From Luteolibacter sp. (GTDB lineage Bacteria > Verrucomicrobiota > Verrucomicrobiia > Verrucomicrobiales > Akkermansiaceae), in NCBI GenBank assembly GCA_021298895.1, contig JAJTHK010000090.1:1-35491 (forward strand): a stretch of 35,491 nt of DNA, written 5' to 3'. The notes under the pieces are model-generated. The model saw nothing but the letters and a program-made list of their open reading frames with translations. It was not told the origin of the DNA and did no database searches. Positions 4,775 through 29,035 of the stretch are shown one piece after another. A program made the translations under genes and the position numbers. Position 1 is the stretch's first letter. Every line of letters begins with the position of its first letter.

Positions 4775-6667
4775 TCAAGCTACCATCCGAACCATCTCGG
4801 GAATGGGTGCTCCAATCGCTTCCGCGGTAGCCCGTAACAATTCGATCTCCAAATCGTCGACCTTGCCATCATCGACAACGACTAATGAACAAAGGCGCAG
4901 GATCTGTTGTTTCACTAGGGGTGTGGAAGCATTGATTTGACTCAAAGCCTCTGCGACATGGCCCAGACCGACTTCGGTCTTATATGGCTCGCGCCCTGTG
5001 TGCTCACGGTATTCTTGAAATGCTTTATCTAACACCCCCTGCCCTCCTGAAATTTTTCCAAAGGCAGATAAAATATTCATGACCTCTGCTTCGAGTTCTA
5101 TGATTTTCCGGAATTTCATTTTAGGAACGGCGACCAATCCCAAACCAATTTCTACATGTCTGCGGATGACTTGCTGCAGCATAAACTCAAACATGTCGAT
5201 TTGTCCGTCCGCCTCGATCAACACTTGTGTCAGTGCAATAAATTCATGTGCTTCATCGACACTCATGCGCCTTAACCAAGCCAAGGAAAGATCCACCATG
5301 GTTAATTTTTCGACAGATTTTTTCTGCGCCAACTTTTCACTCCATTCAATCACTTCGCTAATTTGTAACGAATTATATCCACGAGAGATTAAAACCTGCT
5401 GGACTGCTTGGACATCGTGCTGATTCTGCCCGATCAATAATCCCAGCAACAACGATTTGGCCTGATCTTTGGAGAAATTACCGCTTTCATTTCCTATCAA
5501 TTCATCTGTCTTACTGAGTTCAGGCACTTCGGAATCGTCATCCATGCCAACGGATGAATCACTCTCAACTTCTTCTTGAACCTGACCAGCAAAGCCCATC
5601 GCTCCATAAAACTCCTGCTGACTTTTCACAGGTTTCGCTTCCAACATCACACCATTCCAACTCGGATCGATCGCTTTAATTCGCTGACTGAGAGGCGGAT
5701 GAGTTGCCATCAATGAACTCAAGCTGCTACCAGCAAAAAACATGTGTCGGGCTTCTGCAGCCGCAGGCGCAATGATGTGGCCGTGCTCTGCAAAACCACC
5801 GATCTTTTTCAACGCTCCCGATATTCCATCTGGCAATCGAGTAAACTGTACGGCCGAGGCATCTGCCAAGAATTCACGTTGCCGTGAAATCGCAGCTTGG
5901 ATCATGCGTGCAAAAAGAACTCCAACTGATCCAACCAACCAAAGAACCAACCCTGCGGCTAATATGGCAATAATCAAACCGCCACCATTTTTTGAATTTC
6001 GTGAACCACGGAAATGCCGCAGCGATTCCAGAAGAAAGCGACCTATGACTGAAACCATCACCAATCCAAAAATCCATCCCATCAGGCGGATATTCAGTTT
6101 CATGTCACCATTGAGAATGTGACTGAACTCATGCGCGATCACACCTTGTAGCTCCGAACGATTCAAGCGCTCCAGAGTTCCACGGGTCACTCCTATCACT
6201 GCGTTGGCAGGATCTGTTCCCGCAGCAAATGCATTGATTCCAGGCTCTTCATCCATGATCCACACCTCTGGAATCGGAACTCCTGAAGCGATCGCCATTT
6301 CTTCCACCACATTCAACAATCGTCGCTCATAATGATTCCTCGTATCCGGCTCAACGAGTCTACCTCCCAAATTTTCCGCCACCACTTTTCCACCACCTGA
6401 AAGTTGTGAAAGCTTCGTGAGGCTACCAATAAAAATCACACCTCCAACTAAAACCGTGGTCCATAACAACAGCTCAGGATTCCAAAGACCTAACTGACTA
6501 ACTTCTGTCGCAACATAGATACTATGTTGATCAGGGCTACTCATTTGCAAGGCGATCGTAGCGCAGACATAAATCACCAAGATCACGCCGATGACAGCCA
6601 GCGCAAACCACAAGACCAGCAAGCGGCTGGATTTTCTAGCACGTTCTTGTGCCTCGAAAAAGTTCAT
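4775..6667 (-). CDS. M48 (HtpX-like) membrane metallopeptidase with C-terminal TerB-like domain
   Basis: 630 residues. Two N-terminal transmembrane helices (about 15-40 and 68-85) precede a zinc peptidase domain with HEFSH at 179-183. The third zinc ligand is Glu265 in REFLADASAV. A Gly-rich loop and another pair of helices lie between 195 and 255, as in HtpX. Residues from about 400 onward form an acidic helical region ending in a domain with EADGQIDMFEF and DDGKVDDLEIELL, typical of TerB-like modules that sense or bind metal. The family degrades misfolded membrane proteins. The fusion to TerB is known from larger M48 proteins but less common than plain HtpX. It lies 22 nt after lemA on the same strand, so the two form an operon. 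Confidence 0.9.
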   Translation of the reverse strand: MNFFEAQERARKSSRLLVLWFALAVIGVILVIYVCATIALQMSSPDQHSIYVATEVSQLGLWNPELLLWTTVLVGGVIFIGSLTKLSQLSGGGKVVAENLGGRLVEPDTRNHYERRLLNVVEEMAIASGVPIPEVWIMDEEPGINAFAAGTDPANAVIGVTRGTLERLNRSELQGVIAHEFSHILNGDMKLNIRLMGWIFGLVMVSVIGRFLLESLRHFRGSRNSKNGGGLIIAILAAGLVLWLVGSVGVLFARMIQAAISRQREFLADASAVQFTRLPDGISGALKKIGGFAEHGHIIAPAAAEARHMFFAGSSLSSLMATHPPLSQRIKAIDPSWNGVMLEAKPVKSQQEFYGAMGFAGQVQEEVESDSSVGMDDDSEVPELSKTDELIGNESGNFSKDQAKSLLLGLLIGQNQHDVQAVQQVLISRGYNSLQISEVIEWSEKLAQKKSVEKLTMVDLSLAWLRRMSVDEAHEFIALTQVLIEADGQIDMFEFMLQQVIRRHVEIGLGLVAVPKMKFRKIIELEAEVMNILSAFGKISGGQGVLDKAFQEYREHTGREPYKTEVGLGHVAEALSQINASTPLVKQQILRLCSLVVVDDGKVDDLEIELLRATAEAIGAPIPEMVRMVA

Positions 6668-19407: not shown

Positions 19408-20535
19408 TTAACTCCCTCGCATTGCAAAAATCGATCCTGATTTAGCTCCTGTTGCGCTTTTCAATGGTTTTGCCGTTCTTTCCTTCTGTCTTTCGAACTG
19501 CGACTGATACCTCGCTGCCATTCCTTTCACATAATCCTCACTCCCTAGCGCAATCCCTTCGCTGAAACACTTTATCCGCTTGCGGATTTCTAACATGGGT
19601 AAAAATAAGAAATTCTCCACCGCAACTTGTTCAGCCTCTACTTGTGCTTCGGTATAACCTTTTCTTCGCGAGCCTTCAGCAACCGCGCCTTCTCCATACA
19701 GCCATTTTCTGTAATAGCCATGTGCCTTTGTATTCCAACTGTCTTGAGCAACTTCCAACACCTTGCAAAGCCCTCGCCGTGCGCGTTTGCTCCCGCCCAC
19801 TGCCTCTCCATAACCACTCCACGCATACATCGCAGGATCCCGCACAATCCCTGCCCGCACCGGATTCAAATCGATATAGCCCGCCATCGTCTGCAGTGCC
19901 TCACCCGTTTCCACCAGCACACTTTTAAATCGATCCATCCACAGCGTCCCACGTCGACTCTTCTGCTTGTTATACCAACGACTGAACCGCTCCTTGAGTT
20001 CTTTGACAAACAAACTCAGGTCGCAGAAGCGTTGTTGGAATCGCTCTAATAACACCTGCGCCGCGTCCTCCTCTTGGCGATTGCGTAACTCGGTGATTTC
20101 ACCTCGGAATTGCGCGATGAAAGCTTTAGAATACACCAATGAAAGATGCTCGAAGAATCTTTCCTCTCCCTCCTTGCCTTCGAAGCGTTTCAGCCAAATT
20201 TTTTGTTCAGGGACTTTGAGTAAAATGTGAAAATGATTGTCCATGATCGCGTAGGTCAGGATTTCGACCCCAGAAAACGTGGCCATCCGCCACATCATTC
20301 TCCGTAGCGCCTCTTTCTCAATCGAACCGAGTAAAAACTCGCCATTCACCACCCTCGACATCACGTGGTAGCACGCCGAGCCATCCGTCATACGCATCCG
20401 CTTGCGCCCTGAGAACCCTTTAGCACGCCGAATCTGCCCCAACCTCCGCCCAGTTTTCATCTCCGCCAACTCCAGGGGAGACCACACCTTTTTCTCCTCA
20501 AAATCCCTTTTTTTATCAACTTTTACCTTATTCAC
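19408..20535 (-). CDS. Y1/HUH transposase, REP-associated (RAYT) type
   Basis: 375 residues. The conserved core shows YHVMSRVVNGE, AIMDNHFHILLKVPE with the HUH histidines, and a helix LFVKELKERFSRWYNKQ carrying the candidate catalytic tyrosine. It is followed by GTLWMDRFKSVLVE and YIDLNPVRAGIVRDP, all hallmarks of the TnpA_REP family. It is longer than many RAYTs because of a roughly 50-residue basic N-terminal extension and a 90-residue C-terminal tail. It starts at GTG. These single-strand transposases mobilise or maintain REP-like palindromes; one such palindrome lies just upstream at 20580-20614. It appears intact, with no frameshift. Confidence 0.9.
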   Translation of the reverse strand: MNKVKVDKKRDFEEKKVWSPLELAEMKTGRRLGQIRRAKGFSGRKRMRMTDGSACYHVMSRVVNGEFLLGSIEKEALRRMMWRMATFSGVEILTYAIMDNHFHILLKVPEQKIWLKRFEGKEGEERFFEHLSLVYSKAFIAQFRGEITELRNRQEEDAAQVLLERFQQRFCDLSLFVKELKERFSRWYNKQKSRRGTLWMDRFKSVLVETGEALQTMAGYIDLNPVRAGIVRDPAMYAWSGYGEAVGGSKRARRGLCKVLEVAQDSWNTKAHGYYRKWLYGEGAVAEGSRRKGYTEAQVEAEQVAVENFLFLPMLEIRKRIKCFSEGIALGSEDYVKGMAARYQSQFERQKERTAKPLKSATGAKSGSIFAMRGS

Positions 20536-22579: not shown

Positions 22580-22921
22580 ATGGCATTTTTCCTCAAGCAG
22601 TTCCTCGCTTTCTGCGTTCTCGCAGGAATGGCGTCTGCTGTGATGCATGAAAATACCCATTCTGACCATGAAAGTTGCGCTCAAACCCATGAGCATCATG
22701 ATCATCACGACCACGACCATCATCCAAATCCCGATGATTGTGAAAATCATGACAGCACCCCGCATCACCATCATTGCTGCCATTTTCCTGTGGCGGATCG
22801 ACCTTCGATCGACCGCTGCTATCTCGCTACTTTCCATGGAAGTTTGTTGAAAATTTCCGTCGAAACCTCGCTCATTCCTGATGAGCCGTTTTTCTCCTTG
22901 GATAAACCCCCTCTGATTTAA
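22580..22921 (+). CDS. secreted histidine-rich, putative metal-binding protein
   Basis: 113 residues. A signal peptide (MAFFLKQFLAFCVLAGMASA) is followed by about 50 residues dominated by His and Asp, with His clusters HEHHDHHDHDHH and PHHHHCCH. About 18 His and five Cys lie in the mature part. Such composition binds Zn, Ni, Co or Cu; which metal cannot be told. It starts with a real Shine-Dalgarno (GGAGG, 2 nt before the ATG), rare in this window, suggesting strong expression. It is the first gene before the CzcC/B/A-like efflux genes and probably acts as a periplasmic metal buffer or sensor. The C-terminal 40 residues are not His-rich and resemble nothing I know. Confidence 0.75.
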   Translation: MAFFLKQFLAFCVLAGMASAVMHENTHSDHESCAQTHEHHDHHDHDHHPNPDDCENHDSTPHHHHCCHFPVADRPSIDRCYLATFHGSLLKISVETSLIPDEPFFSLDKPPLI

Positions 22922-23061
22922 CGCGCCATTCGGGCACCCTCGTGTCTCCGAATTTGTCGCTCGGTCATTACTGCGCACAGAACCAATCACTCTTGCGCGA
23001 TCTCGCGCACACCTGCGTCCTTCTGCGTTCTATTTCATTAACGGATTATCCATTTTATAAC

Positions 23062-24285
23062 ATGCATCCATCTATCACCGCTATTGCATCGCTGTGCTTA
23101 TTCGCAGCGCACCCACTAACAGCCTCGCCCTCAGAAATTCTTTCTTTCGAGAGCATTTCTTCGCGAATCCGCAACCACAACCCAGAGCTCGCCGCTGCCG
23201 GCTTCCGCATCGACGAAGCCTTAGGCCTCGCCAAACAATCGGGCCGACTCTCAAATCCGAGCCTCGAAAGTGGGATTTCAAGCAACACCCGCGCCAATGA
23301 GGGCAACATCGAAATCGGACTCACTCAGAAATTCCCGCTGACTGATCGGCTGCGTATCGAAAAGGAAATCAGCGCCACCGAAATCCAAGTTGCAGAGGCC
23401 GAAGTGAAAAATGTCGAGCGACTTCTGATTTCAGACGCTCGTCAGGAATTCGTGAAAATCCTAGCGATACGCGAACGGAAATCCCTCCTCAAGCAACAAC
23501 AGGAACTCGCCATCGAACTTGCTGAATTCATTTCTGAAAAATCCAAACAGGGTGAAATTTCTCCGCTCGATGCCGCACAAGCAAAGCTCGCTTCGCTACA
23601 ACTCACCACCCAAGAGCGATTATTAAACACGGAGGAAACCGCCGCCCTAGGAAAACTGCGACCTTTGTTAGGGATCGCTCCGGAAACCGCCGTCACCCTC
23701 TCGGGTAATCCTTCTACCATTGCTGCATCCAAAAACATATCCATCGAGCGTCCCGATCTGGCTGCCGCGAAGCTCCATCTCCGCGCCACAGAAGCCGGCA
23801 TCGCGCTCGAACGAGCCAACCGTCGGGAAGACATCGCCGCATCGTTTTTTGCCACAGAAGAACGCAGCGAAGACGCACCAAACGGTTTTGATAACGAAAC
23901 CATCATCGGTTTCAAACTCTCCATCCCGCTTCCTTTTTGGAACAACAACCAAGGCAACATCGATGCCGCAACGGCGCGCCACAACCGCAAGGAACAAGAA
24001 GTCAAAGCCCTCGCCAACCAGATCAACCACGAATCCAACACCGCCCTAACCGAAATCCGGCAATGGGCGGCGCTCATTACCGAACTCGAGGATAAACTTC
24101 TACCTCTCGCTAAAGAACAAACCGATCTTTTAGAAAAATCCTACAAACAAGGCCAAGGCGATCTTCAACTCGTTCTCAACTCCCGCCAACAAACGCTCGA
24201 ATTGCTCGCCTCAAAAATCGATGCCACTCGCGAATTCCACCTCGCCAACATCCGTCACCAAGCAAGCCGTGGCGGCAACTTTTAA
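23062..24285 (+). CDS. TolC/CzcC-family outer-membrane efflux channel
   Basis: 407 residues with a signal peptide (MHPSITAIASLCLFAAHPLTAS). Two outer-membrane-efflux repeats follow. The first has the typical NHNPELAAAGFRIDEALGLAKQSGRLSNP start and a coiled segment EFISEKSKQGEISPLDAAQAKLA. The second repeats the pattern with RPDLAAAKLHLRATEAGIA and KSYKQGQGDLQLVLNSRQQ. It would form the trimeric outer-membrane duct of the tripartite metal pump. The frame extends upstream to 22942, but the residues before 23062 are not signal-like, and the ATG at 23062 gives a clean leader. It lies 33 nt before the adaptor gene. Confidence 0.9.
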   Translation: MHPSITAIASLCLFAAHPLTASPSEILSFESISSRIRNHNPELAAAGFRIDEALGLAKQSGRLSNPSLESGISSNTRANEGNIEIGLTQKFPLTDRLRIEKEISATEIQVAEAEVKNVERLLISDARQEFVKILAIRERKSLLKQQQELAIELAEFISEKSKQGEISPLDAAQAKLASLQLTTQERLLNTEETAALGKLRPLLGIAPETAVTLSGNPSTIAASKNISIERPDLAAAKLHLRATEAGIALERANRREDIAASFFATEERSEDAPNGFDNETIIGFKLSIPLPFWNNNQGNIDAATARHNRKEQEVKALANQINHESNTALTEIRQWAALITELEDKLLPLAKEQTDLLEKSYKQGQGDLQLVLNSRQQTLELLASKIDATREFHLANIRHQASRGGNF

Positions 24286-24318
24286 TAAAACCTCTCTTAA
24301 TAAATCATTTCTAACATC

Positions 24319-25431
24319 ATGAAATTCATCTACCTATCAATTTTTTTAACGAGCAACGCCTTCGCTGCCACGCCTCCGCGCAACGAAACCACTGTACCAC
24401 TCGGCGAAGCTGGAGTTAAAAATCTAGGCATCGAAACCATCGCCGCTGAGGAATCCACTTTTGAACAAAACATTTCTGTGCTCGGTGAAATCGATCACAC
24501 TTGCGAAAGCCATTCCGTTCTCTCTAGCCGTATCCCGGGTAAAATCATTCAAGTCGGAATTCATAAAGGTGAGTTCGTCAAGAAAGGTGATGTCTTACTG
24601 CGCATCGAAAGCCGCCAGCCAGGTGATCCACCACCGATCATCGATCTGAAAGCCCCAGCCGATGGACTTGTGATTAAATCAGTAGGGCACCTCGGAGCAC
24701 CTGTTGAGCCAGAGTCTACTCTGATGGAAATCATGGATATTTCTAGCGTCTGGGTTATCGCTCGCGTCCCGCAACATCATGCCGCGATTTTAAATGAAAA
24801 TCTAACAGCAATAATTCGCATACCTTCAGTCGGCGATAAAATTCATAAAACCAAATTTTTACGACTCGGCACAGAAACCACAAATTCATCTACCGTGGAT
24901 GCAATATTTGAAATCCAAAATCCTGATTATAAAATACGTCCTGGTATGAGAGCTGAACTATCTCTGATTACATCAAAAAGAGAAAACGTTTTCAGTATCC
25001 CCCGTGCTGCTTTGCTGGGAGATCGCGCAAATCGCTTCGTTTTCATCAAAGACTATGAGCTAGAAAATACTTTTGTACGCACTCCAGTTGTTGTCGGAGA
25101 AATAAGTGATGAACGAGTTGAAATCATATCCGGTCTATTCCCAGGAGACGAAGTTGTGATTAAAGGCGCATACTCATTAGCTTTTGCTGGTAAGGGTAAT
25201 GTCTCATTGAAAGAAGCACTGGATGCCGCACACGGCCATCCTCACAACGAAGATGGGACGGAGATGACAGCAGAAGAAATCGCCGCTTCCAATAGTGTTC
25301 AAGACCATGGCCACGATCACCGCTCTAGCGATTCGATCGTTATGTTTCTCAGCATCATTAGTGGTGTGCTTCTGCTGCTACTGATCGCCAGTGTGTTTCT
25401 CCGCAAACCGCAAAATGGAAACGCTGCCTAA
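24319..25431 (+). CDS. CzcB-like membrane-fusion adaptor with His clusters and a C-terminal membrane helix
   Basis: 370 residues. A signal peptide (MKFIYLSIFLTSNAFAA) is followed by a lipoyl/barrel-sandwich segment (RIPGKIIQVGIHKGEFVKKGDV, LKAPADGLVIKSVGHLGAPV). Beta-barrel and membrane-proximal domains then run to about residue 290. This is the periplasmic adaptor of an RND efflux pump. Unusually, the C-terminus continues with HGHPHNEDG and DHGHDH clusters, then a strong transmembrane helix (about 339-361) and a short basic tail. Ordinary CzcB/CusB proteins lack a C-terminal helix. The adaptor is therefore probably anchored at its C-terminus, with its His clusters close to the membrane and the pump. 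Confidence 0.88.
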   Translation: MKFIYLSIFLTSNAFAATPPRNETTVPLGEAGVKNLGIETIAAEESTFEQNISVLGEIDHTCESHSVLSSRIPGKIIQVGIHKGEFVKKGDVLLRIESRQPGDPPPIIDLKAPADGLVIKSVGHLGAPVEPESTLMEIMDISSVWVIARVPQHHAAILNENLTAIIRIPSVGDKIHKTKFLRLGTETTNSSTVDAIFEIQNPDYKIRPGMRAELSLITSKRENVFSIPRAALLGDRANRFVFIKDYELENTFVRTPVVVGEISDERVEIISGLFPGDEVVIKGAYSLAFAGKGNVSLKEALDAAHGHPHNEDGTEMTAEEIAASNSVQDHGHDHRSSDSIVMFLSIISGVLLLLLIASVFLRKPQNGNAA

Positions 25432-25450
25432 TTTTTAAATATCCATTTTC

Positions 25451-28400
25451 ATGCTCAATCATCTCATCCGCTTCTCCTTGAAAAACCGCGCGCTGATCAT
25501 TGCGACAGCGTTGCTGGTCATTTTCATGGGCGCACGCACCGCGACTGAGCTTCCAGTTGAAGTTCTACCAGATATGACCAAACCCACGGTCACGGTTTTA
25601 ACTGAAGCCCCGGGCCTCGCTCCTGAAGAGGTCGAAACCCTCGTCACTCGTCCGCTTGAAAACACCCTACTCGGCATCGGCGGACTCGATAGACTCCGCT
25701 CCAACTCCGATGTCGGACTCTCTCTGGTATTCGTCGAATTCGCATGGGGCACTGATATTTATAAAGCCCGCCAACTTGTCCAAGAACGCCTGCAAGCTGC
25801 TAAATTGCCTGATAACACCCGTTCTGGAATGACTCCGGTTTCCTCGCTCATGGGTGAGATTCTTTTAGTTGGCCTGAAGTCAGAAGACAACTCCATCGCT
25901 CCGATGGATCTGCGCACCTTCGCGGAGTGGACGGTCGCACGACGTTTGCAAAGCATTCCGGGAGTTGCGGAAGTCCTGGCCATCGGTGGTGGCGTCAAAC
26001 AAGTCCACGTCGAGCCAGACCCTCTCAAAATGCAAGCAGAGGGAGTTTCGTTAGATGAGTTAGAAAATGCCGTCACTCTATCCGCCGGCAATGCGACCAG
26101 TGGCTACCTCCAATCTGGCCCACGCGAAATCATGGTGCGCAACCTCGCGATGACTGCGGATCCAGCAGACATCGCCGCATCCAATGTAAAGCGTATCGGC
26201 GACCGCAACATCACCATTGGCGACGTTGCTGAAGTGAAATTCGGTGTCGCCACCATGCGCGGCGACGCAGGGATCGCTTTCGAAGGCGATGAAAAAGAAA
26301 CTCCGGGCATCATTCTCAGCATCGATAAAGCACCTGGTTTTGATACCCTGAAACTTTCTGCTGATATCGAGAAAGCTCTGGCTGATTTACGACCCAGCCT
26401 ACCCGCCGGAGTCGAGGCGGAAATCCTTTTCCGCCAAGGTGACTTCATCGATAGCGCCATCGGCAACCTCAAAGAAGCTATCCGTGATGGTGCGATCATG
26501 GTCACGGTTATCTTGCTGCTTTTCCTACTCAATCTCCGCACTACCTTTATCACTCTAACAGCTATACCGCTGTCGTTTGCTATCACCCTGCTAACTTTCA
26601 AATGGTTTGGAGTTAGTGTCAACAGCATGACTCTCGGCGGTATCGCAGTTGCGATCGGGATGGTGGTGGATGACGCCATTGTCGACGTTGAAAATGTTTT
26701 CCGTCGTCTGAAAGAAAACGCCTCACTCCCCCTACCAAGACCTCGCCTAGATGTCATCGCATCCGCTTCCAGCGAGGTTCGATCCAGCATCCTCTACGCC
26801 ACCATACTGATCATCTTGGTGTTCGTTCCGCTCTTAGGTCTGGCAGGCCTCGAAGGCAGACTTTTCCAACCCATTGCCATAGCAACGATTGTCAGCATGA
26901 TCGCCTCCTTTGTGGTATCGCTCACGGTCATTCCTGTTCTCTGCTCGTTTTTACTTAAACCCAGAGAAGACAAGGAGCACCGCGACGGCTTTTTGGTAAG
27001 ATCACTTAAATCCTTCACCAAAACCACTTTCCTCCGCGCTGCATTCGGTGCTCCACTGGTCGTGATCGGTGTGGTCATCATGCTCGTGGTTGGTGCCGCC
27101 ATGCTTTATCCGAGCATGGGGAAAGAATTCCTCCCCACCTTCAACGAAGGCAGCGCAACCATATCCTTCGCCAGCGCACCGGGTAGTTCTCTCAAACAAT
27201 CCAACGAAGTCGGCGAAACCGCAGTCAAACTTCTGTTAGAGATAGACGAGGTGAAATCCGTCGGTCGCCGTGCCGGACGTGCCGAGCGCGACGACCATGT
27301 CATGCCGGTTTCAGTTAATGAGTTCGATGTTGAATTCCACAAGGGCGGACGCGACCGCGAAGTTGTGTTTGCAGAAATCCGCGACAAGCTAAAAACCATT
27401 CCGGGCACTTTCGTCAACGTCGGCCAACCGATTGGTCATCGTCTCAGCCACATGCTCAGTGGCGTTTCGGCGAAGATCGCAGTGAAAATCCACGGACCTG
27501 ATCTAACGACTCTCCGCCGCTTGGGCACACAAGTCAAAGAAGCCGGACAAACCATTTCCGGACTCACCGATGTGAACCTCGAAGCCCAAGTCCCCATTCC
27601 TCAAATCCGCATTGAGGTCAACCGAGTCCGCGCTCGCACCGAAGGACTCTTACCTGGAGAAATCAATCAACAAGTCTCCCGTCTGTTAGGTGGATCATTG
27701 CTCGGCGAGCTTCGTGAAGGAGAAACCACGGTAGACCTCGTTTTACGATTACCCGAATCATGGCGCACCTATCCGGAAAAAATTAGCGAATTACTTATTC
27801 AAACACCAGACGGACGGCATATACCCCTTTATCTGGTCGCAGATATATACGAAGTCACCGGCCCCAACGTTATCAATCGCGAAAACGGCCAGCGTCGTAT
27901 TGTCATCGGAGCGAATACGGATGAGCGCGACCTCGAGTCACTGGTGAAGAACTGGCAACTTGCCGTCGCCGATCAAGTGAAACTCCCGCCAGGCTATACC
28001 TTGCGCTTTGAGGGTGAGTATCTCGCTCGTCAACAGGCCTCAAAACGTATTCTCATCCTTTTCGGAATCGTCGCTGTGGTCATCGCCGTTCTTCTAACAG
28101 GTTACTTCCGCAGCGTTTCGCTTTCACTCCAAGTGATGCTCAATCTTCCGCTCGCACTTGCCGGAGCATTGGCTTTCACTTGGTGTAAAATCGATAACAT
28201 CAGCATCGCCACATTGGTCGGTTTCATTGCGGTGGGTGGCGTTGCCGCACGAAATGGAATCATGATGATTTCCCATTACCTGCATCTCATGCGTCATGAA
28301 GGTGAAACTTTCGGGATTGCCCTCATTACTCGTGGCACGCTTGAACGACTCGTACCCGTGCTCATGACCGCCCTCTCCGCAGGCATTGCGCTTATTCCGC

Positions 28401-28579
28401 TCGTCCTCTCACCCGGCGAACCTGGAAAAGAAATCCTTCACCCCGTCGCCGTCGCCATCGTGGGCGGACTGATTTCTTCTACCCTTCTCGACCTTGTCGT
28501 CACTCCCGCCGTGTTCTATCTCATTGGTAGAAAAGCCACAGAAAAAGCTCTCAGGCTGGACGCTCCAGCCACCCGCTAA
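25451..28579 (+). CDS. RND heavy-metal efflux pump, CzcA/CusA-like
   Basis: 1042 residues, a full-length RND protomer with two 6-helix halves and two large periplasmic loops. The N-terminus (MLNHLIRFSLKNRALII) and LPVEVLPDMTKPTVTV are typical. TM4 carries AIGMVVDDAIVDVEN near 400-415, the proton-relay Asp pair region. In classical CzcA this motif is DFGxxxDGAxxxVEN; the alanine-isoleucine-glycine and DDA version points to another heavy-metal branch, nearer CusA-like. GGVAARNGIMMISHY is the matching second-half motif. The metal exported (Zn/Co/Ni or Cu/Ag) is not determined. It lies 19 nt after the adaptor gene and is followed by the Cys-tailed small protein. Confidence 0.92.
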   Translation: MLNHLIRFSLKNRALIIATALLVIFMGARTATELPVEVLPDMTKPTVTVLTEAPGLAPEEVETLVTRPLENTLLGIGGLDRLRSNSDVGLSLVFVEFAWGTDIYKARQLVQERLQAAKLPDNTRSGMTPVSSLMGEILLVGLKSEDNSIAPMDLRTFAEWTVARRLQSIPGVAEVLAIGGGVKQVHVEPDPLKMQAEGVSLDELENAVTLSAGNATSGYLQSGPREIMVRNLAMTADPADIAASNVKRIGDRNITIGDVAEVKFGVATMRGDAGIAFEGDEKETPGIILSIDKAPGFDTLKLSADIEKALADLRPSLPAGVEAEILFRQGDFIDSAIGNLKEAIRDGAIMVTVILLLFLLNLRTTFITLTAIPLSFAITLLTFKWFGVSVNSMTLGGIAVAIGMVVDDAIVDVENVFRRLKENASLPLPRPRLDVIASASSEVRSSILYATILIILVFVPLLGLAGLEGRLFQPIAIATIVSMIASFVVSLTVIPVLCSFLLKPREDKEHRDGFLVRSLKSFTKTTFLRAAFGAPLVVIGVVIMLVVGAAMLYPSMGKEFLPTFNEGSATISFASAPGSSLKQSNEVGETAVKLLLEIDEVKSVGRRAGRAERDDHVMPVSVNEFDVEFHKGGRDREVVFAEIRDKLKTIPGTFVNVGQPIGHRLSHMLSGVSAKIAVKIHGPDLTTLRRLGTQVKEAGQTISGLTDVNLEAQVPIPQIRIEVNRVRARTEGLLPGEINQQVSRLLGGSLLGELREGETTVDLVLRLPESWRTYPEKISELLIQTPDGRHIPLYLVADIYEVTGPNVINRENGQRRIVIGANTDERDLESLVKNWQLAVADQVKLPPGYTLRFEGEYLARQQASKRILILFGIVAVVIAVLLTGYFRSVSLSLQVMLNLPLALAGALAFTWCKIDNISIATLVGFIAVGGVAARNGIMMISHYLHLMRHEGETFGIALITRGTLERLVPVLMTALSAGIALIPLVLSPGEPGKEILHPVAVAIVGGLISSTLLDLVVTPAVFYLIGRKATEKALRLDAPATR

Positions 28580-28600
28580 TCCATTAAAAAACACACATAT

Positions 28601-29035
28601 ATGAAAACAATACTACTCATTACCCTCCTTTCCCTGACTGCCGGCTTTGCCTTCGGCCATGGAGATATCGAACTCGGCCCGAACAAAGGCCACAATCTTG
28701 AATTCAGCACGAATGAAACTATGCATGGTGAAGTGACAGAGAAAGATGGAAAACTCTTCATCGCCGTTCTCGATAAAGACATGAAACCTGTCGCCCTCGC
28801 CGCGCAGGAAATCACCGCCACGGCAGGAACTCGCGATAAGCCCGTTAAAATTGAGGTTACCAAAGATGCTTCTGCTTTCAGCTTCACCGCTCCAAAAGCA
28901 GGCGAATGGATCATCCTCCAATACAAAGAAACCGCGGATGCCAAAGCCATCGTCGCACGCCTACATTATGATACCAAGGTTTGCGCACCCTGCGGTAATC
29001 CAGAATGGCGCTGTGCATGCCCTCCGAAAAAGTGA
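28601..29035 (+). CDS. small secreted protein with Cys-rich tail, metal-efflux accessory
   Basis: 144 residues. A signal peptide (MKTILLITLLSLTAGFAF) is followed by GHGDIELGPNKGHN, a beta-rich middle (about 35-120), and a C-terminal tail with four Cys at 128, 131, 138 and 140 (CAPCGNPEWRCAC). The N-terminal His residues and the Cys tail could bind one or more metal ions. It lies 21 nt after the RND pump gene in the same operon, so a role as periplasmic metal carrier or buffer is inferred. The middle resembles small periplasmic proteins often found near CusA-type operons. No enzymatic motif is visible. Confidence 0.7.
   Translation: MKTILLITLLSLTAGFAFGHGDIELGPNKGHNLEFSTNETMHGEVTEKDGKLFIAVLDKDMKPVALAAQEITATAGTRDKPVKIEVTKDASAFSFTAPKAGEWIILQYKETADAKAIVARLHYDTKVCAPCGNPEWRCACPPKK

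Follow-up and report, generated by a model that had tools for sequence, protein, structure and literature searches.

Several described systems resemble parts of the locus reported here, a five-gene metal-efflux operon at positions 22580-29035 of contig JAJTHK010000090.1 from Luteolibacter sp. (Verrucomicrobiota; assembly GCA_021298895.1), which was analysed as a window comprising the stretch from position 1 to 35,491 (35,491 nucleotides, nt). CutF-like upstream regulators have been collected with filters for proteins of <150 amino acids with a Sec-type N-terminus and a Pro-Pro pair (PP) in the last 15 residues, the commonest downstream gene being one for an outer-membrane efflux protein (OEP; PMC9973294). 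Verrucomicrobiota represented a minor phylum in the published survey, and in CutF itself 45 residues separate the metal motif from the ending. In CruR (Bordetella pertussis BP2923, a DUF2946 protein) the Cys motif is located 45 +/- 1-2 residues ahead of the RAPP ending (PMC9426467), and arrest has been demonstrated (PMC12992588). Among efflux operons, a small gene, czcI or nieI, heads czcICBA and the Cupriavidus operon nieIC-cep-nieBA (PMC7060636), and Helicobacter pylori CrdA, which binds copper in the periplasm, is encoded together with the CrdB-CzcB-CzcA copper exporter (PMC9182242; PDB 9ll2, 9ll4).

We propose, with a probability of roughly 0.6, that the Luteolibacter operon combines a metal-sensing leader peptide, a tripartite exporter and a CrdA-like periplasmic metal protein, and that its expression is gated by pausing on the leader. 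The pump itself is an ordinary metal pump; it is the front end that is unusual, and this front end is probably a cis-acting metal-sensing leader of the CutF/CruR type with an ending and hairpins of its own. The five open reading frames (ORFs) share one direction and are separated, from gene 1 to gene 5, by 140, 33, 19 and 21 nt, exactly as described in a first-pass annotation of this DNA:

22580..22921, plus strand: leader gene for a 113-amino-acid putatively exported His/Cys-rich peptide, CutF-like (hydrophobic N-terminal segment, PP near the end, OEP gene next)
23062..24285, plus strand: TolC/CzcC-type outer-membrane factor (PF02321, 1.7e-31)
24319..25431, plus strand: CzcB/CusB-type periplasmic adaptor (TIGR01730, above cutoff)
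25451..28579, plus strand: heavy-metal efflux pump of the resistance-nodulation-division type (HME-RND), CusA/CzcA family (TIGR00914)
28601..29035, plus strand: 144-amino-acid secreted protein encoded after the pump, predicted to be a beta-sandwich with a CrdA-like fold (alignment, AlphaFold2 model, fold match)

The scores of the three middle genes, i.e., the PF02321 match, 111.9 bits for the adaptor (TIGR01730 cutoff 94.9) and 737.8 bits for the pump (TIGR00914 curated cutoff 701.45), uphold the claim that this is a complete heavy-metal RND export operon.

The leader contains 18 His and 6 Cys and starts with a hydrophobic segment which, judged by hydropathy alone, represents a putative Sec-type export signal. 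Its size, the PP in its DKPPLI-stop ending and the OEP gene 140 nt 3' of it all satisfy the filters for CutF-like upstream regulators, and its Cys/His motif lies approx. 45 residues ahead of the ending, as in CutF (Cys66 and Cys67 precede Pro110 by 44 and 43 residues, respectively). Three parts of the leader region are of particular concern:

22763..22783, plus strand: HHHHCCH cluster, residues 62-68, putative metal-sensing site (Cys spacing in relatives)
22901..22921, plus strand: C-terminal DKPPLI-stop, putative translation-arrest ending (conserved hexapeptide, synonymous codon variation)
22919..22965, plus strand: site of an RNA element of two hairpins, degenerate in the window; in relatives, the leader stop codon marks its start

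In the window's group, 21 distinct leaders were compared; 20 have the final Cys of their cluster 43-44 residues ahead of the first Pro, and the lone exception has a His near the expected Cys position. The distance from the start to the Cys varies from 60 to 95 in the same leaders. Pairwise identity in the spacer was 23% on average (median 18%), as compared to 82% for the last hexapeptide. Since the PPLI codons vary synonymously among relatives, it is the peptide that is conserved. The leaders thus share three constants, i.e., the ending, the Cys-Pro spacing and the place directly 5' of the channel gene; as the spacing was not used to collect the family, it represents an independent match to the proposed mechanism. 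When the DNA of 59 genomes was scanned for anything coding (D/E)KPPLI-stop, with the reversed pattern as a control, 23 matches were found versus 1 for the control. All 23 lie at the end of a leader ORF, 43-46 residues after a Cys, and the next gene encodes a channel (OEP/TolC) in 22 and an adaptor-type protein in one.

These observations bear on two other explanations of the leader. The first-pass annotation took the 113-amino-acid protein for a mature periplasmic buffer or scavenger, which would capture metal and feed the pump, as an exported protein so rich in His and Cys might. For a buffer, however, there is no need to keep a fixed 43-44 residues ahead of a conserved ending right at the stop codon, or to have covarying hairpins that start there (see below), and most of the leader sequence drifts freely. 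We consider this role very unlikely and the earlier reading probably wrong, as a cis-acting leader explains the spacing, ending and hairpins better; the protein may have some metal-binding role alongside a leader function. Alternatively, (D/E)KPPLI could be the ordinary structural or sorting tail of a CzcI-like periplasmic regulator, with the spacing set by a folded domain. The nearly unconserved spacer is unlike a folded domain, and such a tail leaves the RNA structure at the stop codon unexplained; this alternative appears quite unlikely, even if the conservation is at the peptide level and CzcI, which has no PP ending, is still suggested to be regulatory.

The RNA around the leader stop is structured in relatives. 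As compared to shuffled sequences, the 120 nt around the stop showed mean folding z scores of -2.4 and -2.7 (two sets), versus -0.7 to 0.1 for the remaining gene junctions in these operons. In an alignment of 21 relatives, 84% of whose cells pair, two hairpins in tandem start from the leader stop codon. Their covariation score was 0.228, as compared to 0.133 +/- 0.015 for shuffled alignments (exceeded by 0 of 500 shuffles), and one pair position shows five pair types. RNAalifold gave nothing on a first, badly aligned set; it was the shorter 21-row alignment that gave the signal. The stop codon is part of the 5' arm of hairpin 1, so that a ribosome paused on PP would cover this arm. A covariance model of the element (R1) gave 21 matches at E<1e-4 in the 59 genomes, most of them at loci from which the model was built, or at close kin of these, and only few independent; of the 21, 16 coincide with places found by the DNA pattern, and the other 5 are located at leader stops before a channel gene. 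One of these 5 is a second copy in the window's own genome (L162, G000:C174:1343-1394, minus strand, E 1.8e-10). The leader at L162 ends in EKPPII-stop and is accompanied by a TolC-type gene, and the operon runs off contig C174.

A further alternative is that the leader acts on transcription in a CruR-like manner, with ribosome release or arrest gating an intrinsic or Rho-dependent terminator before the pump genes. This finds some backing in the stop codon within the 5' arm of hairpin 1, in a U-run after the second hairpin in several relatives (L029, L030, L096 and L141) and in the CruR precedent, which works through Rho. Such a U-run is missing in most relatives, however, an Rfam search returned no match and no attenuator, and metal turns the CruR operon off whereas an exporter should be turned on. 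We regard transcription control as somewhat unlikely.

Other leader types were also observed. A second group of leaders ends in WPxxLxxTIALRI-stop in place of (D/E)KPPLI-stop (L040, L042-L047, L051, L052, L063, L074, L075, L078 and L081); gene order is unchanged there, and an HxH cluster usually lies approx. 70-75 residues ahead of the stop. RAPx or RGPx occurs near the leader C-terminus at L060, L084, L086, L088, L089, L094, L115 and L117, which have other pump types downstream, and resembles the known RAPP/RGPP arrest motifs. Inside the window's leader gene, a terminator-like hairpin with a T-run occupies 22870-22886, just before the PPLI codons; as terminator-like sites were found at only approx. 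2x the shuffled rate, this hairpin may be due to chance.

In Verrucomicrobiota, the two small genes are companions of an RND pump of the CusA/CzcA type. A neighbourhood survey, fixed beforehand as the refutation test for the idea that the small genes accompany the pump in relatives, bore this idea out. The 144-amino-acid family is present in 47 of 59 related genomes and in 34 of 288 genomes sampled across the phylum, and its gene is located directly 3' of an RND gene at every locus whose neighbourhood was read; distant members (27-40% identity) likewise follow RND genes, of other pump types. Comparison of the listed places of the 144-amino-acid and pump genes found them adjacent in nearly all cases, the clearest non-adjacent case being G132:C32, where approx. 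0.9 kb separate the two. At the other end of the operon, nearly all loci with enough flank have a small exported His/Cys-rich ORF directly 5' of the TolC-type gene, in a constant position despite sequences that have diverged almost past alignability. Because both small genes recur beside the same pump in those related loci that have enough flank, the arrangement is not due to chance. At L029, the adaptor and pump genes are separated by two small antisense ORFs (5150-5832, minus strand) that by eye resemble a toxin-antitoxin pair of the VapBC type; the corresponding interval at L030, L034, L065 and L073 is about as large.

The protein encoded after the pump is marked by its C-terminus:

28982..29020, plus strand: Cys tail CxxC-x6-CxC (C128, C131, C138, C140), invariant in 42 sequences

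These sequences extend down to 27% identity, and E135, P27 and G30 are invariant as well. Profile searches against Pfam and NCBIfam placed neither small protein in a curated family above cutoff. For the 144-amino-acid family, a profile-profile comparison did match secreted proteins encoded after related proteobacterial pumps (96% probability, E 5e-9). Assignment to DUF4198 was rejected (14.5 bits, cutoff 34), as was an N-terminal mature His serving as a universal histidine-brace site, since this His is missing in distant members; tblastn for plasmid homologues returned one fragment only (E=1). The AlphaFold2 model is a beta-sandwich (pLDDT 87), and its best structural match was H. pylori CrdA, both apo and silver-bound (Z 9.8, 90 residues, 2.5 A), followed by a DUF4426 protein one unit lower (Z 8.8) and then by copper-binding FetP/FtrA proteins. 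The predicted fold suggests that the Cys4-tailed protein is plausibly a CrdA-like-fold periplasmic metal-handling protein. Strict synteny with the pump and the Ig-like fold would also suit a protein that serves the tripartite pump as a structural subunit or in its assembly and carries no metal, with the four invariant Cys forming disulfides. As CxxC-x6-CxC could also plausibly bind metal, and a copper-resistance protein crystallised with silver is the solved structure closest in fold, we consider a subunit or assembly role unlikely.

By analogy with CutF and CruR, which is the basis for metal binding, ribosome pausing and regulation here, the operon would act as a metal-induced tripartite efflux unit equipped with a sensor that works during translation. 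The first gene would yield a short exported His/Cys-rich leader; while this is still on the ribosome, the His/Cys cluster would emerge at the translocon or in the periplasm, approx. 44 residues ahead of Pro-Pro-Leu/Ile-stop. Metal bound at the cluster would alter how long the ribosome pauses on the ending, and ribosome occupancy at the stop codon would decide whether the hairpin forms there and hence whether the pump genes are expressed. The TolC-type protein, adaptor and RND pump would then export the metal, and the CrdA-like protein would bind periplasmic metal and either hand it to the pump or sequester it. Beyond this locus, we tentatively suggest, at slightly less than even odds, that peptides ending in (D/E)xPP(L/I)I-stop form a class of arrest peptides for metal sensing in Verrucomicrobiota that has not been described before. 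They would occur more than once per genome, and the ribosome paused on the ending would directly gate a hairpin with the stop codon in its 5' arm and thereby turn on whole metal-efflux operons.

A number of results weigh against this reading. The window's own intergenic RNA is weakly structured (folding z -1.8) and gave no significant match to R1; part of the motif is kept there and the proper partner strand is missing, which counts against the RNA part at the window locus. The ending KPPLI differs from the tested RAPP/RGPP arrest motifs, and a bare Pro-rich ending alone is not a strong arrest sequence in CutF, so that pausing on the window leader is not assured. The leader scored 20.1 bits with the CopL family NF033807, under the curated cutoff of 40, and did not match DUF2946 (PF11162), for which one relative scored 11.3 (cutoff 23.7). 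Shared ancestry makes the relatives non-independent and so inflates the statistics. As for the 144-amino-acid protein, Foldseek alone returned weak Ig-like matches only (no E below 0.001), PDB sequences contained no CrdA match to the family, and the Met-rich MxxEMPGM motif of CrdA is not in its sequence; the link to CrdA is thus one of fold alone, and function is not shown by it.

Adaptor and pump carry three further features:

25231..25428, plus strand: adaptor C-terminal tail, with HGHPHNEDG, more His and then a hydrophobic segment
26651..26695, plus strand: signature of transmembrane helix 4 (TMH4), AIGMVVDDAIVDVEN, residues 401-415 (motif common to 71 surveyed pump proteins)
27437..27451, plus strand: HRLSH, residues 663-667 (alignment counterparts: the region of Met672 in CusA, HRLDH in NieA-type pumps)

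The adaptor's His clusters, reported in the first pass, are real: a His-rich tail with a C-terminal hydrophobic segment was found in 72 of 78 relatives. The conserved HGHxHNEDG stretch and hydrophobic segment at this end are unusual for adaptors, and in related proteobacterial operons a comparable tail, His-rich and hydrophobic, belongs to a small exported protein encoded separately.

The pump motifs were compared to those of pumps of known type. In CusA, a Cu(I)/Ag(I) pump (HME4), the triad is formed by Met573, Met623 and Met672; alignment to CusA structures places Ser, Val and His667 at these positions in the window pump. The DFG motif of the Zn/Co/Ni pumps CzcA and CnrA (HME1/HME2 consensus DFGX3DGAX3VEN; PMC3637150) is missing in the window pump, which has AIGMVVDDAIVDVEN there instead. 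Among the marks of HME5/NieA-type pumps, for which nickel has been proposed as the substrate, the TMH4 pattern AxG...VDDA..DVEN and HRLSH (versus HRLDH) are present and HAEGVH is missing. Plasmid pumps with 43-49% identity to the window pump mostly carry the full set of three HME5/NieA motifs, and Hymenobacter relatives adjoin copper genes. Candidates for the metal handled by the operon are Cu, Ni or another divalent ion.

The operon is flanked on the opposite strand by a CAAX-protease-like gene upstream and a 540-amino-acid gene downstream, for which no Pfam match was found; no regulator gene was found among the flanking genes. A sigma-70 promoter scan gave matches no more frequent than chance, and a Shine-Dalgarno contrast between leader and pump genes was discarded as inconsistent from locus to locus. 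Elsewhere in the window (19408-20535, minus strand), there is an IS200-like (Y1_Tnp) transposase-family gene, possibly a transposase associated with repetitive extragenic palindromes (REP).

Overall, the leaders represent a large, easily recognised Verrucomicrobiota set with an exact geometry, in which a Cys cluster is followed after 43-44 residues by PPLI, the stop codon and a hairpin, and could offer a second natural test of how metal bound outside the membrane alters translation inside. The ending also provides a simple DNA signature for locating metal-efflux operons without a transcription-factor gene, and the accessory parts of HME pumps would gain a CrdA-like periplasmic protein in a Cys4 variant.

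The accessory parts had not been recognised from standard czc or cus operons; they are more familiar than this implies, as CzcI/NieI-like heads and proteobacterial post-pump genes are comparable. The 144-amino-acid protein shares with CrdA the predicted beta-sandwich fold and membership of a CzcBA-type pump operon; it differs in having a Cys4 tail and no Met-rich motif and in being encoded after the pump, whereas crdA precedes it. Proteobacterial post-pump proteins of 125-185 amino acids (Cupriavidus EM10, Variovorax RA8, Thiothrix), which have no sequence match to CrdA, occupy the same operon position but are without the Cys4 tail. At the front end, the leader gene resembles czcI and nieI as a small gene 5' of a CzcC-type gene in an HME-RND operon, but CzcI is without a PP ending and, unlike in the NieI operon, no cep gene separates C from B in the window operon. 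With CruR the leader shares a fixed spacing from Cys motif to PP, an ending few residues from the C-terminus and a place at the head of a metal operon, whereas CruR ends in RAPP (KPPLI in the window), controls an importer, is turned off with copper and is Rho-dependent. CutF of Rhodobacter capsulatus (cutFOG) is likewise <150 amino acids long, with a Sec-type N-terminus (putative in the window leader), a Cys/His motif, PP among its final 15 residues, a spacing of approx. 45 residues, an OEP gene downstream and a stem-loop after the gene (found here in relatives; the window copy is weak). The window leader is not matched by the DUF2946 or CopL models and differs from CutF in its (D/E)xPPLI-stop ending and in having CC/CxC in a His-rich stretch as compared to CxxxC; leaders of this type head an RND operon in Verrucomicrobiota, with a hairpin that starts at the stop codon itself.

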